Assembly (NCBI GenBank): GCA_025964675.1
Contig: JAOPYI010000293.1
Coordinates: 1-41,799, forward strand
Source: Sphaerisporangium sp.
GTDB lineage: Bacteria > Actinomycetota > Actinomycetes > Streptosporangiales > Streptosporangiaceae
Reading direction: 5' to 3'
DNA length: 41,799 nt
Every line of letters begins with the position of its first letter. Positions within the stretch are counted from its first letter, which is position 1. Both the position numbers and the translations under genes were made by a program. The notes beneath the pieces are model-generated. The model worked only from the letters and a program-made list of their open reading frames with translations. It ran no database searches and was not told the DNA's origin. This document shows, piece by piece, positions 1 to 9,947 of the stretch.

Positions 1-471
1 TGCCATCTGCTCGACCGCGGCTAGACCCGCCGCGGGAGGCATGAAGTCGTCCCAGTCGCGGTGGAGGGCGTCCAACCAGACCAGCCCGGCCACGTCCTGC
101 GGGTACAGCTGCGCGAACCGATGCGCGTAGAAGCCGCCGAGGGAGTGCGCCACCAGCACGTATGGGGAGGCGATGTCCTGGGCGCGCAGCAGCTTGTGCA
201 GTTCCGTGGCGACCGCGGCGGCGGTGCGCGGCAGCGGGAGCGGGTCGCTGTAGCCGGTGCCGCCACGGTCGTACACCACAGCGGTGGTGAACTGCGAAAC
301 CCCCTGCTGGACACCGAAGTAGTCCAGGCCGACCGCGCTGGCGCCCGGCAGGAACACGACGGCTGGTCCGCCGCTGCCCGACCGATGCACGAAAATGCGA
401 CGGCCGTCGATCTCCTGGAACCCTCCGATCGGCGGAGCGAGCCGAGCCGAGGAAGTGATGTTGTTCATCAT
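1..471 (-). CDS. alpha/beta hydrolase, C-terminus cut off by window edge
   Basis: The 157 visible codons run open to the first base of the window, so the C-terminal half is missing. The protein is an alpha/beta-hydrolase-fold enzyme: a beta strand ending VVFLPGAS (oxyanion region, about residues 38-45), the YDRGGTGYS loop (67-75), and the nucleophile elbow AHSLGG with Ser110. The catalytic His and probably the acid lie outside. The substrate cannot be told; ester, lactone and epoxide hydrolases and non-heme peroxidases share these motifs. The start is a double ATG (471, or 468) with GGAG nine bases upstream. It lies 86 bp after the FGGY kinase on the same strand but has its own promoter-like dyad at 478-509, so it may be only loosely tied to the sugar operon. 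Confidence 0.85.
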   Translation of the reverse strand, partial: MMNNITSSARLAPPIGGFQEIDGRRIFVHRSGSGGPAVVFLPGASAVGLDYFGVQQGVSQFTTAVVYDRGGTGYSDPLPLPRTAAAVATELHKLLRAQDIASPYVLVAHSLGGFYAHRFAQLYPQDVAGLVWLDALHRDWDDFMPPAAGLAAVEQMA

Positions 472-557: not shown

Positions 558-2099
558 CTACATCTCTGGCATGAAAGCGTCTTCGAGCCCCGCCAGGCGA
601 TGCGCGATGTCGGCGGTCTGCCGATAGCCTGCCTTGTACAGGGAGAACATCTCGTCGTACTGGGCCTTGGCGGCCTGGTCCGGCCGCACGCTGGTCGAGT
701 GGTCGATGGTCGAGACGGCCTCGCTGAGCGAGGCGAAAACGCCCACGCCCACCGCGGCTCGGAGGGCGTCGCCCAGGCTCGCACCAATGGTCTGCGAGGG
801 GATCCACTGTTCGACGCCGCACACGTCCGACACGATGTGCATGAGCAGATCGTTCTTCGTTCCGCCGCCGACCGCCAGCACGCGGGTGACGGGGAATCCT
901 TCCGCGAGCAGTGCTTCGAGGTTGTGCCGAATCCCGTAGGCGATCGCCTCCAGAACGGCGCGGCACAGGTCGGACCGGGTGTGGCGCAAGGTGAGACCGA
1001 TGAACGCCCCGCGGGCCGCCGGGTCGAAGAACGGCGTCCGCTCGCCCGCGAAGTAGGGAAGGGCCAGCAGACCGCGGGAACCGGGAACGGATTCCCGCGC
1101 CAGCGCGACGATGTCGCCGTAATCGAGCTCCGACCCGTCATCGAGGCGGCGGCCGAGCAGGTCGCGCAGCCAGGTGATGAGACCACCGGACGTGGCCATG
1201 CCTCCAGCGACGGCGTACGTGCCCGGTTCATGAAAGTGGGACGGCCAGAAGCGGGTGCTGGCGGAGGGAGCGTCCGTGCGCAGGATGAAGAACGTGCTGG
1301 TGCCGTACATCACCATCAGGTCGCCGGGCTGCCGCATCCCGGCACTGAGCGCCTCCGCCGCCGCGTCGGCGGTCCCCGCGACCACAGGCGTTCCTGCGGC
1401 GAGGCCGGTCGCGCGAGCCGCCTCCCGCGTGACCTCTCCGACGACCTCGCACCCCCAGGCCAGCCTTGGGAGCAGCGAAGGCGGGCACAGCTCGGCGGCG
1501 GAGTCGGACCAGCGCGTTCCTGAGGCATCGATCAGCGGAGCGTATGCGGCGGAGGCGTCGTAGACATCGATCACCGACTGGCCGGTGAGCCTACGGACGA
1601 CATAACCCTCCGCGCCGAGCACGCCTCGCGTCTTGGCCCAGACCTCCGGCTCATGGCGCTGCAGCCACCGAATCTTCGGCGCGACCGACTGCGAACTCAG
1701 GCCCCTGACACGGTCATCGGTGCCGTCGAACCGGGCGATCAGCTCGCCGATCTCCTCGGTGGCCCTGGTGTCGATTCCATAGAGGATTCCGGGTCGCAGC
1801 GGCACCCCGGCCGCATCGACAGGCAGCACGCAGGGAGCGATGGCGCTCACGCCGATCCCGGCGATCCGGTCCGGTGCCACACCGGAGCGCTGGAGAAGTG
1901 AAGAGGTGAGGACACGGAAGTCGTGCCACCACACCCCGTCCGCGTCCTGCTCGAAGAAGCCGGGACGCGGCATCTGGACGCCGTGCGCGACGCTCGCCTC
2001 CGCGACGACGACACCCGCGCCGTCGACCAGGGCGCCCTTGGATGAGGAAGTCCCGATGTCGATGCCGAGGGTGTAACGCTCCATCGCCAGGACCGTCAT
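558..2099 (-). CDS. FGGY-family carbohydrate kinase (xylulokinase-like)
   Basis: A 513-residue ATP-dependent kinase that phosphorylates a sugar or sugar-like compound in the cytoplasm. Visible features are the N-terminal phosphate-binding loop DIGTSSSKG (14-22), the GTAD motif whose Asp245 should be the catalytic base, a second loop MYGTST, and C-terminal VGGGTKND (407-414) for adenosine binding. The length is normal for FGGY kinases such as XylB, GlpK, AraB and LsrK; the substrate within that family cannot be read from motifs. The ATG at 2099 is chosen because GGAGG sits six bases upstream; a second Met lies five codons in. It starts 10 bp after the M29 gene and is the last of the eight tightly linked genes, so it probably phosphorylates what the upstream ABC transporter imports or a product of it. 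Confidence 0.9.
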   Translation of the reverse strand: MTVLAMERYTLGIDIGTSSSKGALVDGAGVVVAEASVAHGVQMPRPGFFEQDADGVWWHDFRVLTSSLLQRSGVAPDRIAGIGVSAIAPCVLPVDAAGVPLRPGILYGIDTRATEEIGELIARFDGTDDRVRGLSSQSVAPKIRWLQRHEPEVWAKTRGVLGAEGYVVRRLTGQSVIDVYDASAAYAPLIDASGTRWSDSAAELCPPSLLPRLAWGCEVVGEVTREAARATGLAAGTPVVAGTADAAAEALSAGMRQPGDLMVMYGTSTFFILRTDAPSASTRFWPSHFHEPGTYAVAGGMATSGGLITWLRDLLGRRLDDGSELDYGDIVALARESVPGSRGLLALPYFAGERTPFFDPAARGAFIGLTLRHTRSDLCRAVLEAIAYGIRHNLEALLAEGFPVTRVLAVGGGTKNDLLMHIVSDVCGVEQWIPSQTIGASLGDALRAAVGVGVFASLSEAVSTIDHSTSVRPDQAAKAQYDEMFSLYKAGYRQTADIAHRLAGLEDAFMPEM

Positions 2100-2109
2100 G
2101 GGCAGCCTC

Positions 2110-3198
2110 CTAGAAAGCGAACGCTCCGCGCTCCAGCACTGTGCGCCCGTCGATCAGGACGGCGCCTTCCGTACGAAGGTCCTTGACGATGTCCCAGTGG
2201 ATCGCCGAGACGTTGGTCCCTCCGCATTCCGGATACGCCCGCCCGAGCGCGATGTGAACGGTACCCGCGATCTTCTCGTCGATCAGGATGTCGTTGCAGA
2301 AACGGTCGATATGGGGATTCGTGCCAATCCCGAACTCGCCGATCGCTGTCGCGCCCTCGTCGGTGGCCAGCACCGACCGCAGGAAATCCTGATTCGTCTT
2401 ACTGGTCGCTTCGACGAGCGTCCCATTGTCCCAACGCAGGGTCACGCCCTGGATGAGACGGCCGCCGAAGACAGCGGGATGCTCAAACGTGATCACGCCG
2501 TCCACGGTCTCCGTGACAGGCGCCGTCATCAGCTCGCCGTCGGGGTTGTTCGTCCCGCCGGCACCGACCACCCACGAACGGCCCGCGATGGAGAAGCGGA
2601 GATCGGTGCCGCGCCCGACGATCCGCACCGACCGCGCGTCACGGATGTTGTCGATCCATCCCTGCCATTCCGCGGCCGCGGCCTCCCAATCGAGCAGGCA
2701 GGCGCGGAAGAACATCTCCGTGATGTCGTCGAGGCTGGATCCGGCCTGCTCCGCGAACGCCTGGTTCGGCACCCGGACGAGGGTCCAGCGAGTCTTCCGC
2801 CAGCGCAAGGACGAGATGACCCCCTGAGCGGCCTGGTTGACGGCGAGCCGGTCAGCCGGGATGTCGTAGTGGATGTCGAGGGGGAATGCGCCGCGGAGGG
2901 CGATGTACACGTCCGCCCATTCCATACCGTGAGCCTCGACCTCCGGAACCCACTCGAGCTGCTCGGGAGTGCCGAGCCGCAGCAGCGATTCCCGGAGGGT
3001 CTCGGAAAGGAACTGCACCTGCGGAAAGGCGCCGGCGCGGATGCAGGCCTCGTACACCCCGCGCGCCAGGGGGAAGGACTCGATCTCTCCCATGGCGATC
3101 ATGACGCGCTCGCCGGGCTGGACCTTGGTCGCGTGACGGACCAGGTGGGCGCCGAGTTCGAACCAGCGGGGGTCGTCGGCCGACACGAGGTTCGTCAT
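2110..3198 (-). CDS. M29-family (aminopeptidase T/AmpS-like) metallopeptidase homologue
   Basis: A 362-residue protein with the full set of M29 metal-site positions: Glu222 in NPDGE, Glu288 in GEFGIGTN, His315 in TVHIALG, Tyr322, and His334/Asp336 in the HWD motif. The family consists of two-metal cytoplasmic aminopeptidases, but the same fold also gave NicX, an iron dioxygenase for 2,5-dihydroxypyridine, so peptide hydrolysis is not certain. Its ATG overlaps the stop of the BtpA-family gene (ATGA) and the kinase follows 10 bp later, so it belongs to the sugar operon. An aminopeptidase-like protein there suggests cleavage of an amide or similar bond in a conjugated substrate. That role is inference. 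Confidence 0.85.
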   Translation of the reverse strand: MTNLVSADDPRWFELGAHLVRHATKVQPGERVMIAMGEIESFPLARGVYEACIRAGAFPQVQFLSETLRESLLRLGTPEQLEWVPEVEAHGMEWADVYIALRGAFPLDIHYDIPADRLAVNQAAQGVISSLRWRKTRWTLVRVPNQAFAEQAGSSLDDITEMFFRACLLDWEAAAAEWQGWIDNIRDARSVRIVGRGTDLRFSIAGRSWVVGAGGTNNPDGELMTAPVTETVDGVITFEHPAVFGGRLIQGVTLRWDNGTLVEATSKTNQDFLRSVLATDEGATAIGEFGIGTNPHIDRFCNDILIDEKIAGTVHIALGRAYPECGGTNVSAIHWDIVKDLRTEGAVLIDGRTVLERGAFAF

Positions 3199-4013
3199 GG
3201 AACCAGCGTCTCCCGCGCGGCCCTTGCGTTGGCGGTGAGTTTCGCCACTCGCGACTCGTCGACCTCGTTCCAGATGTAGCCGTCGCGCTTGAAAGCCGTG
3301 CCGATGACGGCCCCGTCCGCGACCGCCAACTGCTGGGCCACCGTCTCGGCGGTGACACCGGTGTTCGCGAAGACCGGTGTGTCCGGCACCGCCGATTTGA
3401 CCTCGCCGAGCGTTTCGGTGCTCGTCGTGGCCCCCGCGGTAAGCCCCGACACGCAGAGGGCATCCGGGCGCGTGTTGAAGACGGTGGAGCGCGCGATCGA
3501 AGCGATGTCGCGGTCGGCGAGGTAGACGGCGGACTCGGGGACGATGTTGTACAGCAGGCGGACGTCCTGGCCGTCCACCGCGCGACGGTGCCGCGCGACG
3601 CGGCCGCTGTCGGTATTCCACAGGCCGTAGTCGCTGGCGTACACGCCGGAGAAGATCTCGCGGACGAACCGGGCACCGGTACCCACGGCGAGGTCGATCG
3701 ACGCGGTGGGATCCCAGAGCACGTTGACCCCGAACGGCACAGTGATCTGTGAGGACAGTTCACCGATGATCCTGGCCATGGTGATCGCCGTGATCGGTTC
3801 CGTCTTCAACAGGTACGGCAGGCTCGCCTCGTTGGAGAACATGACGGCGTCCACCCCGCCGTTCTGCAGCGCCCTGAGATCGCGCCGCGCGGCTTCCAGA
3901 ACCCCTTCGACACCCGCTTCCGGGTCGTAGCCGGGATCGCCCGGCAACGCGCGGAAATGACACATCGCGATAACGGGCTTGGACACGCCGAAGACATCTT
4001 TGATCCAGTTCAT
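3195..4013 (-). CDS. BtpA/SgcQ-family TIM-barrel protein
   Basis: A 272-residue protein of the BtpA family. Recognisable segments are ALPGDPGYDP (22-31), GGVDAVMFSNEAS, VPFGVNVLWDPTAS, ARFVREIFSG and, near the C-terminus, ADGAVIGTAFKRDG, which looks like the phosphate-binding end of a beta/alpha barrel. BtpA was named for photosystem I assembly in cyanobacteria. SgcQ is the homologue in the E. coli sgc sugar operon; as far as I know no reaction is established for it. Here it follows the DeoR regulator by 32 bp and overlaps the M29 gene by 4 bp. A lyase, aldolase or isomerase acting on a phosphorylated sugar is a reasonable guess from fold and context, but only a guess. Confidence 0.85.
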   Translation of the reverse strand: MNWIKDVFGVSKPVIAMCHFRALPGDPGYDPEAGVEGVLEAARRDLRALQNGGVDAVMFSNEASLPYLLKTEPITAITMARIIGELSSQITVPFGVNVLWDPTASIDLAVGTGARFVREIFSGVYASDYGLWNTDSGRVARHRRAVDGQDVRLLYNIVPESAVYLADRDIASIARSTVFNTRPDALCVSGLTAGATTSTETLGEVKSAVPDTPVFANTGVTAETVAQQLAVADGAVIGTAFKRDGYIWNEVDESRVAKLTANARAARETLVP

Positions 4014-4045
4014 TCTTCCCCTACTTTTCTGTGAATCCCAGGTGG

Positions 4046-4810
4046 TCAGGAGGCGACGACGACTTTCACGCCCGCTGCTTTGAGCGCGGCCTGAAGTTGC
4101 CCGGACGGCTCCTCGTCGGTGACGAGCATCGCGACGGCTTCAAGGCCGGCGATCCGCGCGAATGCGATCTGGTCGAATTTGCGGGAGTCGGCGACGAGGA
4201 TCACTTCCTTGGCGGAACGGATCATCGCCTGCTTGACGAGGACGTCGTCCCAGTTGTACTCGGAGAGCCCGAACGCCGCGTCGATGCCGCCGACGGCGAG
4301 GATCAGCCGGTCCACCGACAGCTCGCTGAAGGCGTGTCTGGCGAGTTCTCCGATGAGGGACGCTTCGCCGGGGCGGGCGATGCCCCCTGCCACGATCAGG
4401 CGGATGTCCGGTTCGTCGACCAGCAGCCCCGCGATCCGCAGCCCCGGCGTGATCACCGTCAGATTCCTGCGTCCCTGCAGGTTCCGCGCGACTTCGAGAC
4501 AGGTCGAGCCGGTGTCGATGGCCACGCTGTCTCCTTCCGCGATGAGGCCGGCCGTGAGCGCGCCGATGTTCTTCTTGACCTCGCTGTTCTCGGTCGTGCG
4601 AACCATGTACGGCGGCTCGTAACTTCGCCCCCGGCCGGCGACGGCGCCTCCGTGTACCCGGCGCGCCAGGCCTAGCCGTTCCAGTTCGAGCAGGTCACGG
4701 CGGATCGTCATGGGCGACACCGCGAAGCGTTCGGCGAGGTCGACCACCGTGACCGAGCCGACCTCTGCGAGGTCTTGCAGGATCTGTGACCGGCGGACCG
4801 CGGACTTCAT
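4046..4810 (-). CDS. DeoR/GlpR-family transcriptional regulator
   Basis: A 254-residue repressor-type regulator. Residues 5-60 form the DeoR winged helix-turn-helix (VVDLAERFAVSPMTIRRDL, then RRVHGGAV). The rest is the DeoR sensor domain, whose ligand is normally a phosphorylated sugar; GDSVAIDTGSTCLEVA and the DRLILAVGGIDAAFG segment are typical. The ATG overlaps the stop of the preceding permease (ATGA), so the regulator is encoded inside the operon it most likely controls. The kinase product is a plausible inducer. Candidate binding sites lie in the 460-base region upstream of the binding-protein gene. Confidence 0.92.
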   Translation of the reverse strand: MKSAVRRSQILQDLAEVGSVTVVDLAERFAVSPMTIRRDLLELERLGLARRVHGGAVAGRGRSYEPPYMVRTTENSEVKKNIGALTAGLIAEGDSVAIDTGSTCLEVARNLQGRRNLTVITPGLRIAGLLVDEPDIRLIVAGGIARPGEASLIGELARHAFSELSVDRLILAVGGIDAAFGLSEYNWDDVLVKQAMIRSAKEVILVADSRKFDQIAFARIAGLEAVAMLVTDEEPSGQLQAALKAAGVKVVVAS

Positions 4811-5895
4811 GGCCGGCTCTCCCTCGCGGCCGCCGCCGGTTCGGGGACGGGGTGCCCGGGCTCCTTGGTGTCAGATACCCGTCGCCCGCGGCGGAAGCGC
4901 TGGTAGGAGATCCGGCTGGCCGAGACGACGGCCAGGAGCAGCACCCCCCAGGCGAAGTTCTTGAAGAAGTTGCTGCCGCCGGAGCCGACGAGGATCATGT
5001 TCAGGCCGGTCGACAGCATCTGCAACGTCACCAGCGAAAGCACGACTCCCGCCACCCTGCCCGAACCGCCGGCGACGGAGACACCGCCGAGCACCGCGAT
5101 GAGAATGGTCAAGAGAATGTAGGAAGCCCCGTAGGTCGGGTTGGCCGAGTTCGTACGGGCCATATTGATGATGCCGGCGACTCCCGCGAGGAGACCGCTG
5201 ACGGTGTAGACCGCCACGGTGACCTTGCCGTTGTTCACCCCGGAGAAGAGCGAGGCTCGCGAGTTCGCGCCGAGGAGATAGGCCTTGACCCCGAGCGGGC
5301 TGCGGTTGAGCAGCAGCCACACCGCGATGACGCAGACGATCAGGATGAGCGTGGGGACCGGCACCAGGGCGAAGGCCTGCGTGCCGAGCTGTTCCAGGGC
5401 GACGGAACCGCCGGGGACCGAGACGCCGCCGGTCAGCACCGTGGCGACCCCGCCCCACAGCGTCATGGTGGCCAGGGTCGCGAGGATGGGCGGGACCCGC
5501 AGGTAGCCGATGACGACCCCGTTGCCCATCCCGGCCAGGACACCCACGACGAGACCGACCAGGACAGCCACCAGGGTGGTCAACCCGTCGGCCGCTCCGG
5601 CGGAGGCGAGCTTCGTCGCGGACAGCGCACTGAGGATCGAGGACAGGTTGGCGACGGCGACGATGGACAGGTCGATGCCGGCCAGGATCATGGCGAGCGT
5701 CATCGCCAGGCTGAGCACGCCGAGATCGGATATCTGCAGGGCCATCGAGGTGAAGTTGCTCGCCTGCGGAAAGGTGCCGGGCTCCCATGCGGAAAGACTC
5801 GCGAGGACCACGGCGAACACGGCGATGAGCACCCGCAGATGGGGATCCGCCGGCCACAGCGTGCGACCGATCGCCTCTCGTATCCGGATGCCCAT
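4807..5895 (-). CDS. sugar-type ABC transporter permease (RbsC/LsrC/D-like), second subunit
   Basis: A 362-residue hydrophobic membrane protein of the BPD_transp_2 family, with roughly eight to ten predicted membrane segments and a basic cytoplasmic tail (about the last 35 residues, starting RISYQRFRRGRR). The conserved stretches GMGNGVVIGYLRVPPILATL and ILIAVLGGVSVAGGSG mark the ribose/AI-2/rhamnose permease group. It forms the pore with the 336-residue permease upstream, overlapping it by one base (TGATG). It has an unusually long serine- and lysine-poor first half with LSAWEPGTFPQASNF near the N-terminus, typical of this group. The stop overlaps the DeoR start by 4 bp. Confidence 0.9.
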   Translation of the reverse strand: MGIRIREAIGRTLWPADPHLRVLIAVFAVVLASLSAWEPGTFPQASNFTSMALQISDLGVLSLAMTLAMILAGIDLSIVAVANLSSILSALSATKLASAGAADGLTTLVAVLVGLVVGVLAGMGNGVVIGYLRVPPILATLATMTLWGGVATVLTGGVSVPGGSVALEQLGTQAFALVPVPTLILIVCVIAVWLLLNRSPLGVKAYLLGANSRASLFSGVNNGKVTVAVYTVSGLLAGVAGIINMARTNSANPTYGASYILLTILIAVLGGVSVAGGSGRVAGVVLSLVTLQMLSTGLNMILVGSGGSNFFKNFAWGVLLLAVVSASRISYQRFRRGRRVSDTKEPGHPVPEPAAAARESRP

Positions 5896-6905
5896 CAGAA
5901 CCCTCCCGCCAGTCGCCTGCGCCTGATCGCTCGAACGGCCGGCACGATCGTGCCCGCGAGCAGCACGATGCCAACGGCGACGTTCTGCCAGGTCGTCGGG
6001 ACACCGACGAGCACAAGGCTGTTCTCGACGATGCCGATGAGCAGGACCCCGAGCAGGGTGCCCGTCACGGTGCCCTTCCCGCCGGTGATGAGCGCACCGC
6101 CGAGGACCACGGCCGCGATGATCCCCAACTCGTGGCCTTGCAGGCTGACCGGGTTGGCGTTGCGCAACAGCGACGCGTTGGTCGCTCCAGCGATGCCGGC
6201 GAGGGCTCCTACCGCGGCGTACACGAAGTACCGCACCATGCCGACCCGCACACCGGACCGCTCCGCGACGACGGGGTTGTCACCCAAGGCGTAGATGGTA
6301 CGGCCGAGCGTCGTCTTGTTGAGCAGCAGGGAAACCGCGGCGGCGAGCACCACCAGGATCAGGATCGAGGGATGCAGCGCGGTGGTGCCCACGCCGCTCG
6401 CCGTGTGCACGGTCGCCAGGGCGGCCTTGGAGTAGGCGATGGTGCCCTCCGGCAGGTTGAAGATGGAAACGCCGCCGAAGAAATACAGTTCCGCGCCGTA
6501 GAAGAGGCTGGAGGTGCCCAGGGTCACGATCAGCGTCGGTAGCCGGAAACGTGCGATGAAGAACCCGTTGAGCAACCCCATCACGATGCCGAACGGGAGG
6601 GCGACCAGGTACAGCACCATCGCGGAGCCGGTGAAGTGGGCGGCCACCAGTATGGTCGCCGCGACGAAGACCGACGTGTTGGCGATCGCCGGGAACGAAA
6701 CGTCCACGCCGCCCGAGATCAGCACCAGCAGGACACCAAGGGCGAGGATGCCGCTGACCGTCACCAGCCGGAGGATTTCGAATACGTTCGACAGGCTCAG
6801 GAACGCCGGGTTCAGCGCCTGTATGACGGCGCAGAGGACGACGATGGCCGTCGCTACCGCGAACTCCTGCGACCGGACCGCATGGCGAAGAGCTACGGTG
6901 GTCAT
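5895..6905 (-). CDS. sugar-type ABC transporter permease (RbsC/LsrC-like), first subunit
   Basis: A 336-residue integral membrane protein of the BPD_transp_2 family; family marks are GLLNGFFIARFRLPTLIVTL and AAVVLGGALITGGKG. The ATG at 6905 overlaps the stop of the ATPase gene (ATGA), which fixes the start; a longer open frame upstream is only the shadow of the ATPase gene. It differs clearly from the following 362-residue permease, so the transporter core is a heterodimer as in LsrC/LsrD rather than a homodimer as in RbsC. Confidence 0.9.
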   Translation of the reverse strand: MTTVALRHAVRSQEFAVATAIVVLCAVIQALNPAFLSLSNVFEILRLVTVSGILALGVLLVLISGGVDVSFPAIANTSVFVAATILVAAHFTGSAMVLYLVALPFGIVMGLLNGFFIARFRLPTLIVTLGTSSLFYGAELYFFGGVSIFNLPEGTIAYSKAALATVHTASGVGTTALHPSILILVVLAAAVSLLLNKTTLGRTIYALGDNPVVAERSGVRVGMVRYFVYAAVGALAGIAGATNASLLRNANPVSLQGHELGIIAAVVLGGALITGGKGTVTGTLLGVLLIGIVENSLVLVGVPTTWQNVAVGIVLLAGTIVPAVRAIRRRRLAGGF

Positions 6906-8398
6906 GCCGCCACCAGAAGCTCGTTGAGGCGCTGCTCGTCGATGTCGGCGCGCTCGAACTCGTCGCTGATGCCGCCTTCGCGCATCAGGACGATGCGATG
7001 GCATACCTCGAGCAGCTCGGGAACGTCGTCGGAGATCACGATGATGCCCATGCCGCCTGCGGCGAGTTCCCTGAGGAGCCGGAGGATCTCGGACTTGGAA
7101 CGGACGTCGACACCGACGGTGGGGCCGTTGAGGATGAGGATCTTCGGTGCGGCGGACAGCCACTTGGCCAGCACGACGCGTTGCTGGTTGCCGCCTGAGA
7201 GGGTGCTCACGGCGCGGGTGACGTCCGGCGTCTTGATCTGGAGCTCTCCAACCCAGTGATCGGCCAGCTTCTCCGCCCGTTGTGAGTCGAGCAGCCCCAT
7301 GCGGTTACGAAGTGAGTCCACCGTCCGGATGATGATGTTGGCGGCGATGGAGTGGTCGAGGAACAGTCCCTCGGTGAGCCGGTCCTCGGGGACGTAACCG
7401 ATCCCATGCCGCATCGCCGTTCTCGGCGAGTCGAGGGTCACCTCCGCGCCGTCGATGGTGACGGTGCCGGAGGTCATGGGAAGCAGGCCGAACAGCGCCA
7501 GCGCGAGGGTGTCGCGCCCGGACCCGAGCAGGCCGGTGACGCCGAGAATCTCACCGGCCCGTAGGCGGAGGTCGACATCGTGGAAACAACCGGGCCTGCT
7601 CGCGCCCCGCACGGTCAGTACCGTGCGGCTGGAGCCGGGCACCGGAGCGACCGCGTGGGCGCCGAATTCAATCTCGCGTCCGGTCATGGCACTGACCAGT
7701 GTCCGGCGGTTGAACTCGGCCGCCGGCTGATCGGCGACCTTGACCCCGTTCCTGAGCACGACGGTGTGATCGGAGATCGCGGCGACCTCGTCGAGCTTGT
7801 GGCTGACGAAAAGGGTGGAGACGCCTTCGGCCTTCAGCCCGACGATGATGTCGAGCAGCACGCGCACCTCCTTCTGGGACAGCGCCGTCGTCGGCTCATC
7901 CATCACGATCAAGCGCGCGTCCTTGGCCAACGCGCTCGCGATGGCGATCAGCTGCCTGTCGACCATCGGAAGATCTCGCACAAGCGCGTCGACGTCGATG
8001 CTCACGCGCATCCGATCGAGCACCTTCTGTGCCGCCTCCCTCGCCTTCGCGCGCCGGAACCAGCGCACCCTGCCGCTGATCTGGCTGCCGAAGACGATGT
8101 TCTCGGCGACGGTGAGATGAGAGAAGAGCGAAAAATCCTGGTAGATGACCTGAAATCCCGCGCGAATGGCATCAGGCGGCCTGAACGAGTCCCGAGGCAA
8201 GCCGTCGATGACCATCTCACCGGACGTGGGGGCGTGCACACCCGCGAGGATCTTGATGAGGGTGGACTTTCCCGAGCCGTTCTCACCGACAAGGCAGCAG
8301 ACCTCGCCCTGCGCGATCGACAGTGACACGCGGTCGAGCGCGTGGACACCGGCGAATTCCTTGCTGATCTCTCGCAGCGTCACCAGCGCTGCCGTCAT
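6902..8398 (-). CDS. sugar-type ABC transporter ATPase with two fused ABC domains, one degenerate
   Basis: A 498-residue ATPase of the RbsA/MglA/LsrA type. Domain 1 has an intact Walker A, GENGSGKST (38-46), and Walker B, LIVMDEPT (163-170), but its signature is altered (LPMVDRQ, about 143-149). Domain 2 has a degenerate P-loop, GLLGSGRD (289-296), an intact signature STLSGGNQQR (398-407), and a Walker B reading LILNGPT (421-427), where Asp424 and the catalytic Glu425 have become Asn and Gly. Across the dimer one ATP site should be canonical and the other dead. The ATG at 8398 is chosen because AGGAG lies six to seven bases upstream. It follows the binding protein by 77 bp and overlaps the first permease. 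Confidence 0.93.
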   Translation of the reverse strand: MTAALVTLREISKEFAGVHALDRVSLSIAQGEVCCLVGENGSGKSTLIKILAGVHAPTSGEMVIDGLPRDSFRPPDAIRAGFQVIYQDFSLFSHLTVAENIVFGSQISGRVRWFRRAKAREAAQKVLDRMRVSIDVDALVRDLPMVDRQLIAIASALAKDARLIVMDEPTTALSQKEVRVLLDIIVGLKAEGVSTLFVSHKLDEVAAISDHTVVLRNGVKVADQPAAEFNRRTLVSAMTGREIEFGAHAVAPVPGSSRTVLTVRGASRPGCFHDVDLRLRAGEILGVTGLLGSGRDTLALALFGLLPMTSGTVTIDGAEVTLDSPRTAMRHGIGYVPEDRLTEGLFLDHSIAANIIIRTVDSLRNRMGLLDSQRAEKLADHWVGELQIKTPDVTRAVSTLSGGNQQRVVLAKWLSAAPKILILNGPTVGVDVRSKSEILRLLRELAAGGMGIIVISDDVPELLEVCHRIVLMREGGISDEFERADIDEQRLNELLVAA

Positions 8399-8475
8399 GA
8401 GCCACTCCTGTCGCCAGATGGGAGGTTCGGGCGGAGGTCGCCCTTCCGGAACACACCGGATGGGCAACCAGCGGG

Positions 8476-9540
8476 CTAGAAGTTGTACTGACCCATATTG
8501 GACTTGGTGATGTCCACCCAGCCGGAGCCGTAGATCGTCTTGCCGTTGAGGGTGACGTTGGTGTAGCCCGGGACGCCGAGGTCGGTTCCGGTCGTGATCT
8601 GCTTGCCCTGCAGCACGAACTGGGCGACCTTGTTGCCGACGTAGCCGTGATCCGCAGGGTCCCAGGTCGAGATCTGGGTGATCGCGCCGCTCTTGAGGAG
8701 GTCGCCGGCGTAGGAAACGATGCTCGTGCCCATCACGGCGATCTTGCCGGTCAGCCCGGCCTCTTGCACCGCTTGCCCCGCGCCTACCACGTCGTACGCG
8801 TCCGCCCCCAGCACGCCGCCGAGATCGGGGTACTTCTGCATCAGTTGCTTCATCTCGGCGTAGGACTTGGACTGGTCCGAGCCGGTCACGTTGATGTCAC
8901 CCACCATCTGCATGTTGGGGTATTTCTGCTTCTGGTGGGCGATCGCGGCGTTCGTCCACTCCATCTGGGACTGGCTGTTGAGAGCGCCGACGAACATGCC
9001 GTACTTGCCCTTCTCGCTCATGCTCTTCGCGAGTCCGTCCATCATGTGCTCGCCGTACGCCTTGTTGTCGAAGGGTTCGACGTCGTAGACCGCGTTCTTG
9101 ACACCAGGCGACTCCAGCGCGACGACCGGGACGCCCTGGCTCATGGCCTGCTTCATCACGGACTCCGCTGTGGAGACCTCGATCGGATCGATGATCAGCG
9201 CGTCCGGGTTCTGCGCGAGCATGTCCTGGGCCACCTGGTTCTCCTGGGCGGGGTCCGCTTCGGAGGGGCCCTGCTCGAATGCCGAGATGCCGGTGTCCTG
9301 GCCGAACTTCTTGACGCCGACTTCCATTCGCTTGAACCAGTTGAAGCCCATGGACTTGACCACGGTGCCGAACTTCAACGAGGAGGCGCTCTTGCCCGCG
9401 CCTTTCCACGTTGGCGCACCGGACGTTGCACCGGGAGTTCCAGCGGTCGCGCCGGGGGCGGCGGTCGTGCTCGAACACGCGGCGACTGAGATCGACAACG
9501 CGGCTGCGAGCGCGCAGGCCGTGACACGAGACCTCTTCAT
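8476..9540 (-). CDS. LsrB/RhaS-like sugar-binding lipoprotein
   Basis: A 354-residue solute-binding lipoprotein: signal peptide with lipobox SVAAC (Cys25), a short linker rich in T, A, G and P, then a Peripla_BP_4 domain. By-eye comparison places it with LsrB (autoinducer 2) and RhaS (rhamnose); the LGADAYDVVGAGQAVQEAG region and the final DITKSNMGQYNF match LsrB's end (TKENIDKYNF). The LsrB residues contacting AI-2 do not seem kept: the Asp-Gln pair is Ser-Gln here, and the Pro of the PDA turn is Ala. The ligand is therefore probably different. The ATG at 9540 has AAGGG seven bases upstream; a TTG five codons earlier would put this ribosome site inside the gene. First gene of the operon. Confidence 0.92.
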   Translation of the reverse strand: MKRSRVTACALAAALSISVAACSSTTAAPGATAGTPGATSGAPTWKGAGKSASSLKFGTVVKSMGFNWFKRMEVGVKKFGQDTGISAFEQGPSEADPAQENQVAQDMLAQNPDALIIDPIEVSTAESVMKQAMSQGVPVVALESPGVKNAVYDVEPFDNKAYGEHMMDGLAKSMSEKGKYGMFVGALNSQSQMEWTNAAIAHQKQKYPNMQMVGDINVTGSDQSKSYAEMKQLMQKYPDLGGVLGADAYDVVGAGQAVQEAGLTGKIAVMGTSIVSYAGDLLKSGAITQISTWDPADHGYVGNKVAQFVLQGKQITTGTDLGVPGYTNVTLNGKTIYGSGWVDITKSNMGQYNF

Positions 9541-9612
9541 GACAGAACCCTTCAATGAGGCCAGAAGGTGATCGCTCGAACACCAAAAATGTTGCTTTGT
9601 GCGAGTGAGCGG

Positions 9613-9642
9613 AACCTAGCAACGGCCCCTGAGGGGTGTCAA
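9613..9642 (-). promoter_or_regulatory. promoter of the sugar ABC/kinase operon, with palindrome in the spacer
   Basis: On the minus strand there is a perfect TTGACA -35 (9637-9642), an 18 bp spacer and a TAGGTT -10 (9613-9618), a good primary-sigma promoter for a high-GC actinomycete. The spacer contains the perfect palindrome CCCCTGAGGGG (9626-9636). Transcription should start near 9606, giving a leader of about 65 nt before the ATG at 9540. A protein bound at the palindrome would block RNA polymerase directly. Confidence 0.75.
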
Positions 9643-9947
9643 TGACGAAAGGACAAGATCAGTCGGCGGCGAGGTGTCATGTATTTCCAGGCGATATCTA
9701 TTGCGTTTCGATTCGATTAAGAAAACGTTCACTCGCCGGTCAAACGAACATTCGCGGCCTAACTGAACACCGTGGTGAAGGTCGAGAGCAAAAAACGTGC
9801 CCCACGTAAAATCTCCGGTAATTGGTCGGGGGACGCATCAGCAACCATGCCTCCATGCCGCCGACGCGTCAGAACGCCGAGCTGAAGTCGCCGCCGCTGC
9901 CGTACGCGGGGCGATCACTGGCCGAGCACGAAGGCTCCGAGGCCGGA

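Follow-up and report, generated by a model that had tools for sequence, protein, structure and literature searches.

Which known system, if any, does an operon belong to that combines an importer, a sugar kinase, a BtpA-type barrel and a peptidase-family hydrolase? This question is raised by eight consecutive minus-strand genes (9555-558) in a 41,799-nucleotide stretch of DNA from Sphaerisporangium sp. (contig JAOPYI010000293.1, hereafter the window, meaning this whole stretch). They encode an ATP-binding cassette (ABC) importer of the CUT2 type, a DeoR-type regulator, a BtpA/SgcQ-type protein, an M29-family metallohydrolase and an FGGY kinase, as named in the original prediction, which was made from the sequence alone. 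We favor, with reasonable though not high confidence, the view that the operon is the ABC-importer and FGGY-kinase counterpart of the sgc operon of Escherichia coli. A single SgcQ-clade BtpA pathway would then be served by exchangeable modules for uptake/phosphorylation and hydrolysis, under a DeoR-type regulator. This view rests on the match of the window's BtpA to SgcQ and on the linkage of M29 to BtpA genes.

The window BtpA and its tie to SgcQ

The window's BtpA was 59% identical to E. coli SgcQ over 267 amino acids (E = 2e-120), which bore out the link to sgc that had been proposed from gene families. Both proteins fell into one clade of 57 rows (Shimodaira-Hasegawa-like approximate likelihood ratio test, 99) in a quick tree built from 100 of 107 collected BtpA rows, without those of 230 amino acids or fewer and those of two loci (L003 and L005). 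SgcQ kept 32 of the 32 residues invariant in our BtpA alignment (A1). The AlphaFold2 model of the window protein had a mean predicted local distance difference test score of 94.9, and its conserved residues include H19, E62, E119 and E160. In 15 outgroup rows (L089-L099, L114-L117), E119 was replaced by N (12) or H (3) and E160 by K (12) or V (3), which suggests that these distant BtpA proteins may catalyze a different reaction than the SgcQ clade.

Foldseek neighbors of the window BtpA were mostly phosphate-binding barrels and included TrpF, TrpC, HisF and TrpA. A class I aldolase with a strand-6 lysine was considered but is not supported, since the sole lysine invariant in A1, K242, lies after strand 8. 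Catalysis may proceed by a metal or by acid-base chemistry. The BtpA of photosystem I biogenesis shares Pfam PF03437 with the window protein, which scored far under the cut-off of its model (NF045918, 137.7 versus 400 bits) and was rejected as a match. The literature search also showed that the name BtpA is borne by an unrelated Brucella protein.

Most of the 57 SgcQ-clade rows adjoined FGGY kinases, many of them also ABC importers, and only 4 had an SgcC-like phosphotransferase system (PTS) gene nearby. Because the PTS is rare and FGGY kinases and ABC importers are common beside this clade, it is more probable that SgcQ works as an enzyme of the pathway. One further locus (L158) adds a mannose-family PTS (IIB, IIC, IID), which together with a sigma-54/PRD-type activator stands beside an SgcQ-clade BtpA 52% identical to SgcQ; no M29 or M42 gene was found in this locus.

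BtpA genes are scarce. Counting the centre genome in each case, they were found in 15 of 296 genomes from the phylum of the window (E 1e-20). At E 1e-60 the counts were 3 of 295 for the order to which an Enterovibrio genome belongs and 12 of 299 for the phylum that includes a Murdochiella genome. Given this scarcity across sampled genomes, the linkage of M29 to BtpA described below is far above chance.

Conservation around M29 and exchange of modules

A scan of genome contigs for M29 gave 165 confirmed relatives, and the locus counts use the best 80 of these 165, which came from 13 named phyla, with 4 loci unassigned. Within 8 kb of M29, BtpA was present in 62 of the 80 loci (11 named phyla, 3 unassigned) and a window-like FGGY kinase in 71 (55 at an identity of at least 38%); both occurred together in 59. 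A CUT2 permease was found in 37 loci and a DeoR-type regulator in 35, and BtpA, kinase and CUT2 permease were combined in 32. The CUT2 count was taken from permeases only; including distant ATPases of other importer types brought it to 48. In the 43 loci that extend 8 kb to either side of M29, the counts were 36 for BtpA, 37 for the kinase, 33 for both, 21 for the CUT2 permease, 22 for DeoR and 19 for BtpA, kinase and CUT2 permease together. The expectation that M29 and BtpA would be conserved beside the transporter in relatives thus held, both for the pair (62/80) and for the triple with CUT2 (32/80). Three loci (L002, L004 and L048) carried all eight genes in the window's order, which makes the set a conserved unit. 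Distant M29 relatives were found more broadly, in 90 of the 296 genomes sampled from the window's phylum (its own included), and in 83 of them BtpA had no match. When 9 such M29 loci were compared, they were 32-40% identical. A plasmid search for M29 returned 15 records, with 36.8% as the best identity listed.

Intermediate operons connect the window to sgc. In the order of Enterovibrio, genome G537 carries a run (L147) of SgcQ (71%), binding-protein, ABC, permease, M29 (55%), FGGY and SgcR (42%) genes. This is the window's set of SgcQ, CUT2, M29, FGGY and SgcR-like genes in a different order. L148 is a canonical sgc operon, and L149 reads M42-FGGY-M42-SgcQ (64%). L059 combines M42, FGGY and SgcQ (64%) with three M29 genes, and L053 has two BtpA genes, M29 and an SgcC-like PTS gene. 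CUT2, DhaKL, M42 and BtpA genes stand together in L144, L152 and L153, just outside the 57-row clade. M42 stood beside M29 in only 1 of the 80 loci (L059), which is what one would expect if the two families are alternatives. Together, the intermediate operons indicate that, around or near one BtpA clade, both the uptake module and the hydrolase can be exchanged. Besides M42, other hydrolases of amide bonds also occurred near the core: an amidase (L002, and L006 by cluster), M24 with creatininase (L015, and L024 and L050 by cluster), and a PIG-L deacetylase next to BtpA (L165 and L166).

Several results weigh against our reading. The rows of the BtpA tree were mostly gathered via the M29 search, and the M29 label on them is ascertained. 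The link to M29 or M42 is fairly tested by searches that start from BtpA. From these, 27 wide regions were taken, and weaker matches were kept only as short loci. M29 or M42 lay within 8.5 kb in 7 of the 27 regions, and an FGGY kinase in 15. Within the 57-row clade the hydrolase was found in 4 of 9 regions, or 5 of 9 with L150, where M29 lies about 10 kb from BtpA (L071); two of the four clade misses (L159 and L163) were on contigs ending close by. Several BtpA operons held short-chain dehydrogenase/reductase (SDR), FGGY and CUT1 genes of polyol type and neither M29 nor M42, so BtpA is not always in need of an amide hydrolase. On plasmids of Sinorhizobium (L165) and Phyllobacterium (L166), a BtpA 61% identical to the window's and 68-69% to SgcQ stands with a PIG-L deacetylase, a Gfo/Idh/MocA protein, a sugar phosphate isomerase and a CUT1 importer; tblastn found no FGGY, M29 or M42 within about 10 kb on either side. 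CUT1 or Opp permeases were near M29 in 26 of the 80 loci, with CUT2 in only the 37 given above, so the imported compound may differ among loci. The ribulose-phosphate-epimerase-like SgcE of sgc has no counterpart among the window's eight genes. In a recent study, sgc mutants grew without defect on the substrates tested (PMC13343008). More broadly, BtpA goes together with a DeoR-type regulator and usually with an FGGY kinase, and a subset of these operons is marked by the hydrolase.

Part of this evidence bears on a simpler explanation, a plain polyol or ketose operon in which importer, FGGY kinase and BtpA are the pathway and the M29 and M42 proteins are ordinary peptidases or accessories with no action on the substrate. 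Plasmids of Shinella, Rhizobium, Labrenzia and Thermus (L167-L170) carry DeoR-BtpA-FGGY-SDR-CUT1 sets in which tblastn found no M29 or M42, as do several of the regions found from BtpA. These plasmid sets share BtpA (46-51% identity), DeoR, FGGY and a sugar ABC importer with the window; they differ in having CUT1 and SDR and no M29 or M42 found, and look like polyol use. The L071 locus, with DhaKL, TIM-like and class II aldolase genes, also fits. We nevertheless hold this explanation to be unlikely, if the best placed of the rivals. The window's M29 gene overlaps BtpA by 4 bp, BtpA is near M29 in loci of 11 named phyla, and the unrelated M42 takes the place of M29 in sgc, L144, L149, L152 and L153. 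The M29 metal ligands are kept as well.

Other versions of the core were seen. Two tandem genes resembling IF-2B/ribose-1,5-bisphosphate isomerase lie just before M29 in nine loci (L054, L056, L057, L058, L063, L064, L065, L069 and L076), often with Opp or CUT1 importers and SnoaL-like or luciferase-like genes. Ureidoglycolate-lyase-like genes (PF04115) occur near DhaK, DhaL and CUT2 genes in L017, L018, L019, L031, L032, L071 and L079. The operon-like run of L071, with DhaKL, ribulokinase-like FGGY, M29, YjbQ-like, class II aldolase and TIM-like genes, is suggestive of short-chain ketose chemistry. Some spirochaete loci have an Rpe-family gene close to the core. An apiose-type pathway, prompted by a RuBisCO-like protein in L012, was rejected (OiaX, 80.3 versus a cut-off of 700).

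Proposed pathway and rival explanations

From these gene sets we infer every reaction of the operon and its substrate. The CUT2 importer would take up a small compound of ketose or polyol type that carries an amide (aminoacyl or N-acyl) group, and the FGGY kinase would phosphorylate its sugar part. BtpA, which resembles phosphate-binding barrels and has the conserved H19, E62, E119 and E160, would cleave or isomerize the phosphorylated compound. M29 would hydrolyze the amide bond; this step is placed most simply behind phosphorylation, since the PTS in sgc would deliver an already phosphorylated compound. The original prediction had placed hydrolysis before phosphorylation, an order that is less likely on the same ground if sgc is the same pathway. 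The products would enter triose-phosphate or pentose-phosphate metabolism. In some versions, DhaKL may collect a dihydroxyacetone-like fragment.

More tentatively, and with less confidence than in the kinship with sgc itself, the locus may belong to a cross-phylum pathway for an unrecognized class of nutrient, the amide-bearing ketoses or polyols. Its key step would be that of a new phosphosugar enzyme, the SgcQ-clade BtpA with a His/Glu/Glu/Glu site; sgc would be the PTS version, and M29, M42 and perhaps PIG-L would have been recruited for the same amide cleavage.

The M29 protein itself is consistent with such a hydrolase. Both the fold and the metal ligands place it in its family, E222 and E288 are invariant in the M29 alignment (A2), and it has no evident signal peptide. 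We take E222, E288, H315, Y322, H334 and D336 to be the residues of the metal site. It shares fold and metal ligands with the M29 aminopeptidases PepS, AmpS and AmpT and differs from them in length (362 versus 408-418 amino acids), in sequence (21-26% identity) and in sitting in a sugar-type operon. These ligands also bear on the proposal that M29 is a ring-cleaving dioxygenase like NicX and that the operon degrades a glycosylated heterocycle. A NicX-type site holds a mononuclear iron in place of the two glutamates, and in a weak profile alignment (E 0.34) NicX has F and H at the places of E222 and E288. Ring opening by M29, one of the activities first suggested, is thus disfavored by its metal ligands, to the extent that this weak alignment can be trusted. 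The dihydroxypyridine reading of the operon is disfavored as well, and we regard a NicX-like role as highly improbable.

The alternation of two unrelated aminopeptidase families beside BtpA could also reflect an Amadori-type pathway that takes up and phosphorylates ketosamines or glycated peptides. M29 or M42 would then trim the amino-acid part, and BtpA would break or rearrange the C-N bond in the manner of the HisA and TrpF barrels. The presence of TrpF, TrpC, HisF and TrpA among the Foldseek neighbors would suit this chemistry, and so would the nitrogen-linked induction of sgc (PMC13343008). The same fold neighbors are, however, generic phosphate-binding barrels, and no SIS or PfkB domain occurs among the eight genes. 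To our knowledge no FGGY kinase acts on ketosamines. We consider an Amadori-type pathway improbable, more so than the plain polyol or ketose operon.

Operon layout, setting and comparison with known systems

The coordinates of the operon and its candidate control sites are collected in Table 1. Family matches and junctions confirmed that the eight genes are tightly linked. The ATPase and permease 1, permease 2 and the DeoR gene, and BtpA and M29 overlap by 4 bp, the two permeases overlap by 1 bp, and the remaining junctions are gaps of 77, 32 and 10 bp. Four of the seven junctions thus overlap by 1-4 bp and one gap is only 10 bp, a layout that fits a single transcription unit. A catabolic-type operon, as first proposed, is supported. 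No tRNAs, and no RNA families at gathering scores, were found in the window.

Table 1. Genes and candidate control sites of the operon in the window
Feature	Position	Strand	Remarks
CUT2 binding protein (Peripla_BP_4)	8476..9555	-	likely start ATG at 9540; PF13407 E=1e-57
Double ABC ATPase, CUT2 type (AraG/XylG/RbsA-like)	6902..8398	-	fused
CUT2 permease 1 (BPD_transp_2)	5895..6905	-	
CUT2 permease 2 (BPD_transp_2)	4807..5895	-	
DeoR/GlpR-type regulator, SgcR-like	4046..4810	-	29% identity to SgcR, E=3e-26
BtpA/SgcQ-type TIM-barrel protein	3195..4013	-	PF03437 E=1e-82
M29-family metallohydrolase	2110..3198	-	peptidase-type metal site intact
FGGY carbohydrate kinase	558..2099	-	PF00370/PF02782
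Alpha/beta hydrolase gene, 5' part	1..471	-	cut by contig end; possible ninth operon gene
Candidate promoter TTGACA-18-TAGGTT	9613..9642	-	TTGACA 9642-9637, 18-bp spacer, TAGGTT 9618-9613
ATGTTC half-site, candidate DeoR operator	9746..9751	-	

The single good promoter described earlier was confirmed in part. The TTGACA and TAGGTT elements are present, and L002 and L004 have a -10 counterpart, TAGCTT, at the matching place, preceded in L004 by TTGACC at 17 bp; the consensus promoter scan, however, did not list the window's site. Upstream of the binding-protein gene, the window, L002, L004 and L048 together hold 8 ATGTTC/GAACAT half-sites, a number reached in 0 of 2000 mononucleotide shuffles. 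These are only candidate DeoR operators, because the motif was picked after viewing the same alignment on which it was tested.

At its other end, the operon may continue past the kinase into the alpha/beta hydrolase gene, which begins 86 bp after the kinase stop and is cut off by the contig end. This gene showed no similarity at E 1e-3 to other open reading frames of the compared loci. Exactly 127 bases at this end of the window recur at the start of another contig of the same genome (C160; L184:1-127). Since the hydrolase frame stops after 75 codons in C160, either this is a short gene or a repeat underlies the join. The 127 bases may be a mere assembly word length, and the join therefore rests mainly on synteny: in a relative (G302), one stretch holds the end of pgk together with the same amidohydrolase and the lipoprotein gene.

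On one side of the operon are pgi, tal and tkt, together with what we take from their translations to be pgl and opcA; the joined contig presumably carries secG, tpi, pgk and gap, recognized in the same way. The operon has a GC content of 66.7% (70.3% for 10000-41799) and a third-position GC of 0.85-0.90 (0.94-0.95 in tal, tkt and opcA). In a search of 60 relatives, the other 10 genomes of the genus gave no BtpA or M29 match at E 1e-20; apart from the genome of the window itself, G350 alone has both genes (BtpA 65% and M29 41% identical). Given this absence from the genus and the lower GC, the operon was probably acquired.

Among known systems, the Lsr operon shares a CUT2 importer, a Peripla_BP_4 binding protein and an FGGY kinase with the window. 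The importer has the hallmarks of CUT2, namely this binding protein, a fused double ATPase and BPD_transp_2 permeases, and the closest solved chains are 5bra for the binding protein (E=1.3e-71) and 3ifr for the kinase. The kinase fell under all characterized equivalog cut-offs, the best being XylB (TIGR01312, 299.6 versus 380.25 bits). An autoinducer-2 (AI-2) system of the Lsr type or a rhamnose uptake and processing system would explain the weak scores of the binding protein to RhaS (108 bits) and LsrB (91 bits) and of the kinase to the AI-2 kinase (136 bits). We rejected it as very improbable, because these scores lie far under the model cut-offs (LsrB 90.8 versus 384, RhaS TIGR02637 108.2 versus 342.25, AI-2 kinase 135.6 versus 528 bits) and ligand residues are changed. 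At the places aligned (to 1tjy) with K35, D116, D166, Q167, P220 and A222, which we take to be the ligand positions of LsrB, the window protein has K, E, S, Q, A and A, so that 3 of 6 differ. In contrast to Lsr, the window has BtpA and M29, and its eight genes include no LsrF, LsrG or LsrR, nor a rhamnose isomerase or aldolase. The lsr signature noted at first therefore comes down to superfamily resemblance.

The sgc operon (sgcXBCQAER) is the closer relative. At least 80% of it is held by 1649 of 5426 complete E. coli genomes, and it is present in E. coli K-12. It has been called a PTS for an unknown sugar (PMC5797941); a 2026 study still gives the substrate as unknown and reports induction on nitrogen-containing slow-growth substrates (PMC13343008). 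In the literature searched, we found no paper on the function of the window's gene set, in line with the earlier statement that no described pathway uses it. Both operons have an SgcQ-clade BtpA, a DeoR-type regulator, a metallopeptidase-family hydrolase and uptake coupled to likely sugar phosphorylation. They differ in the uptake system, which is PTS IIABC in sgc and a CUT2 ABC importer with an FGGY kinase in the window, whose eight proteins have no real match to SgcA, SgcB or SgcC. They also differ in the hydrolase, with M29 in place of the M42 protein SgcX, the change of peptidase family that had been noted. The ABC version supplies what sgc is without, a purifiable binding protein for ligand screening and a kinase of its own that is accessible to assay on candidate compounds, and the similar gene sets in several phyla offer a practical way to learn what the window operon and sgc do.

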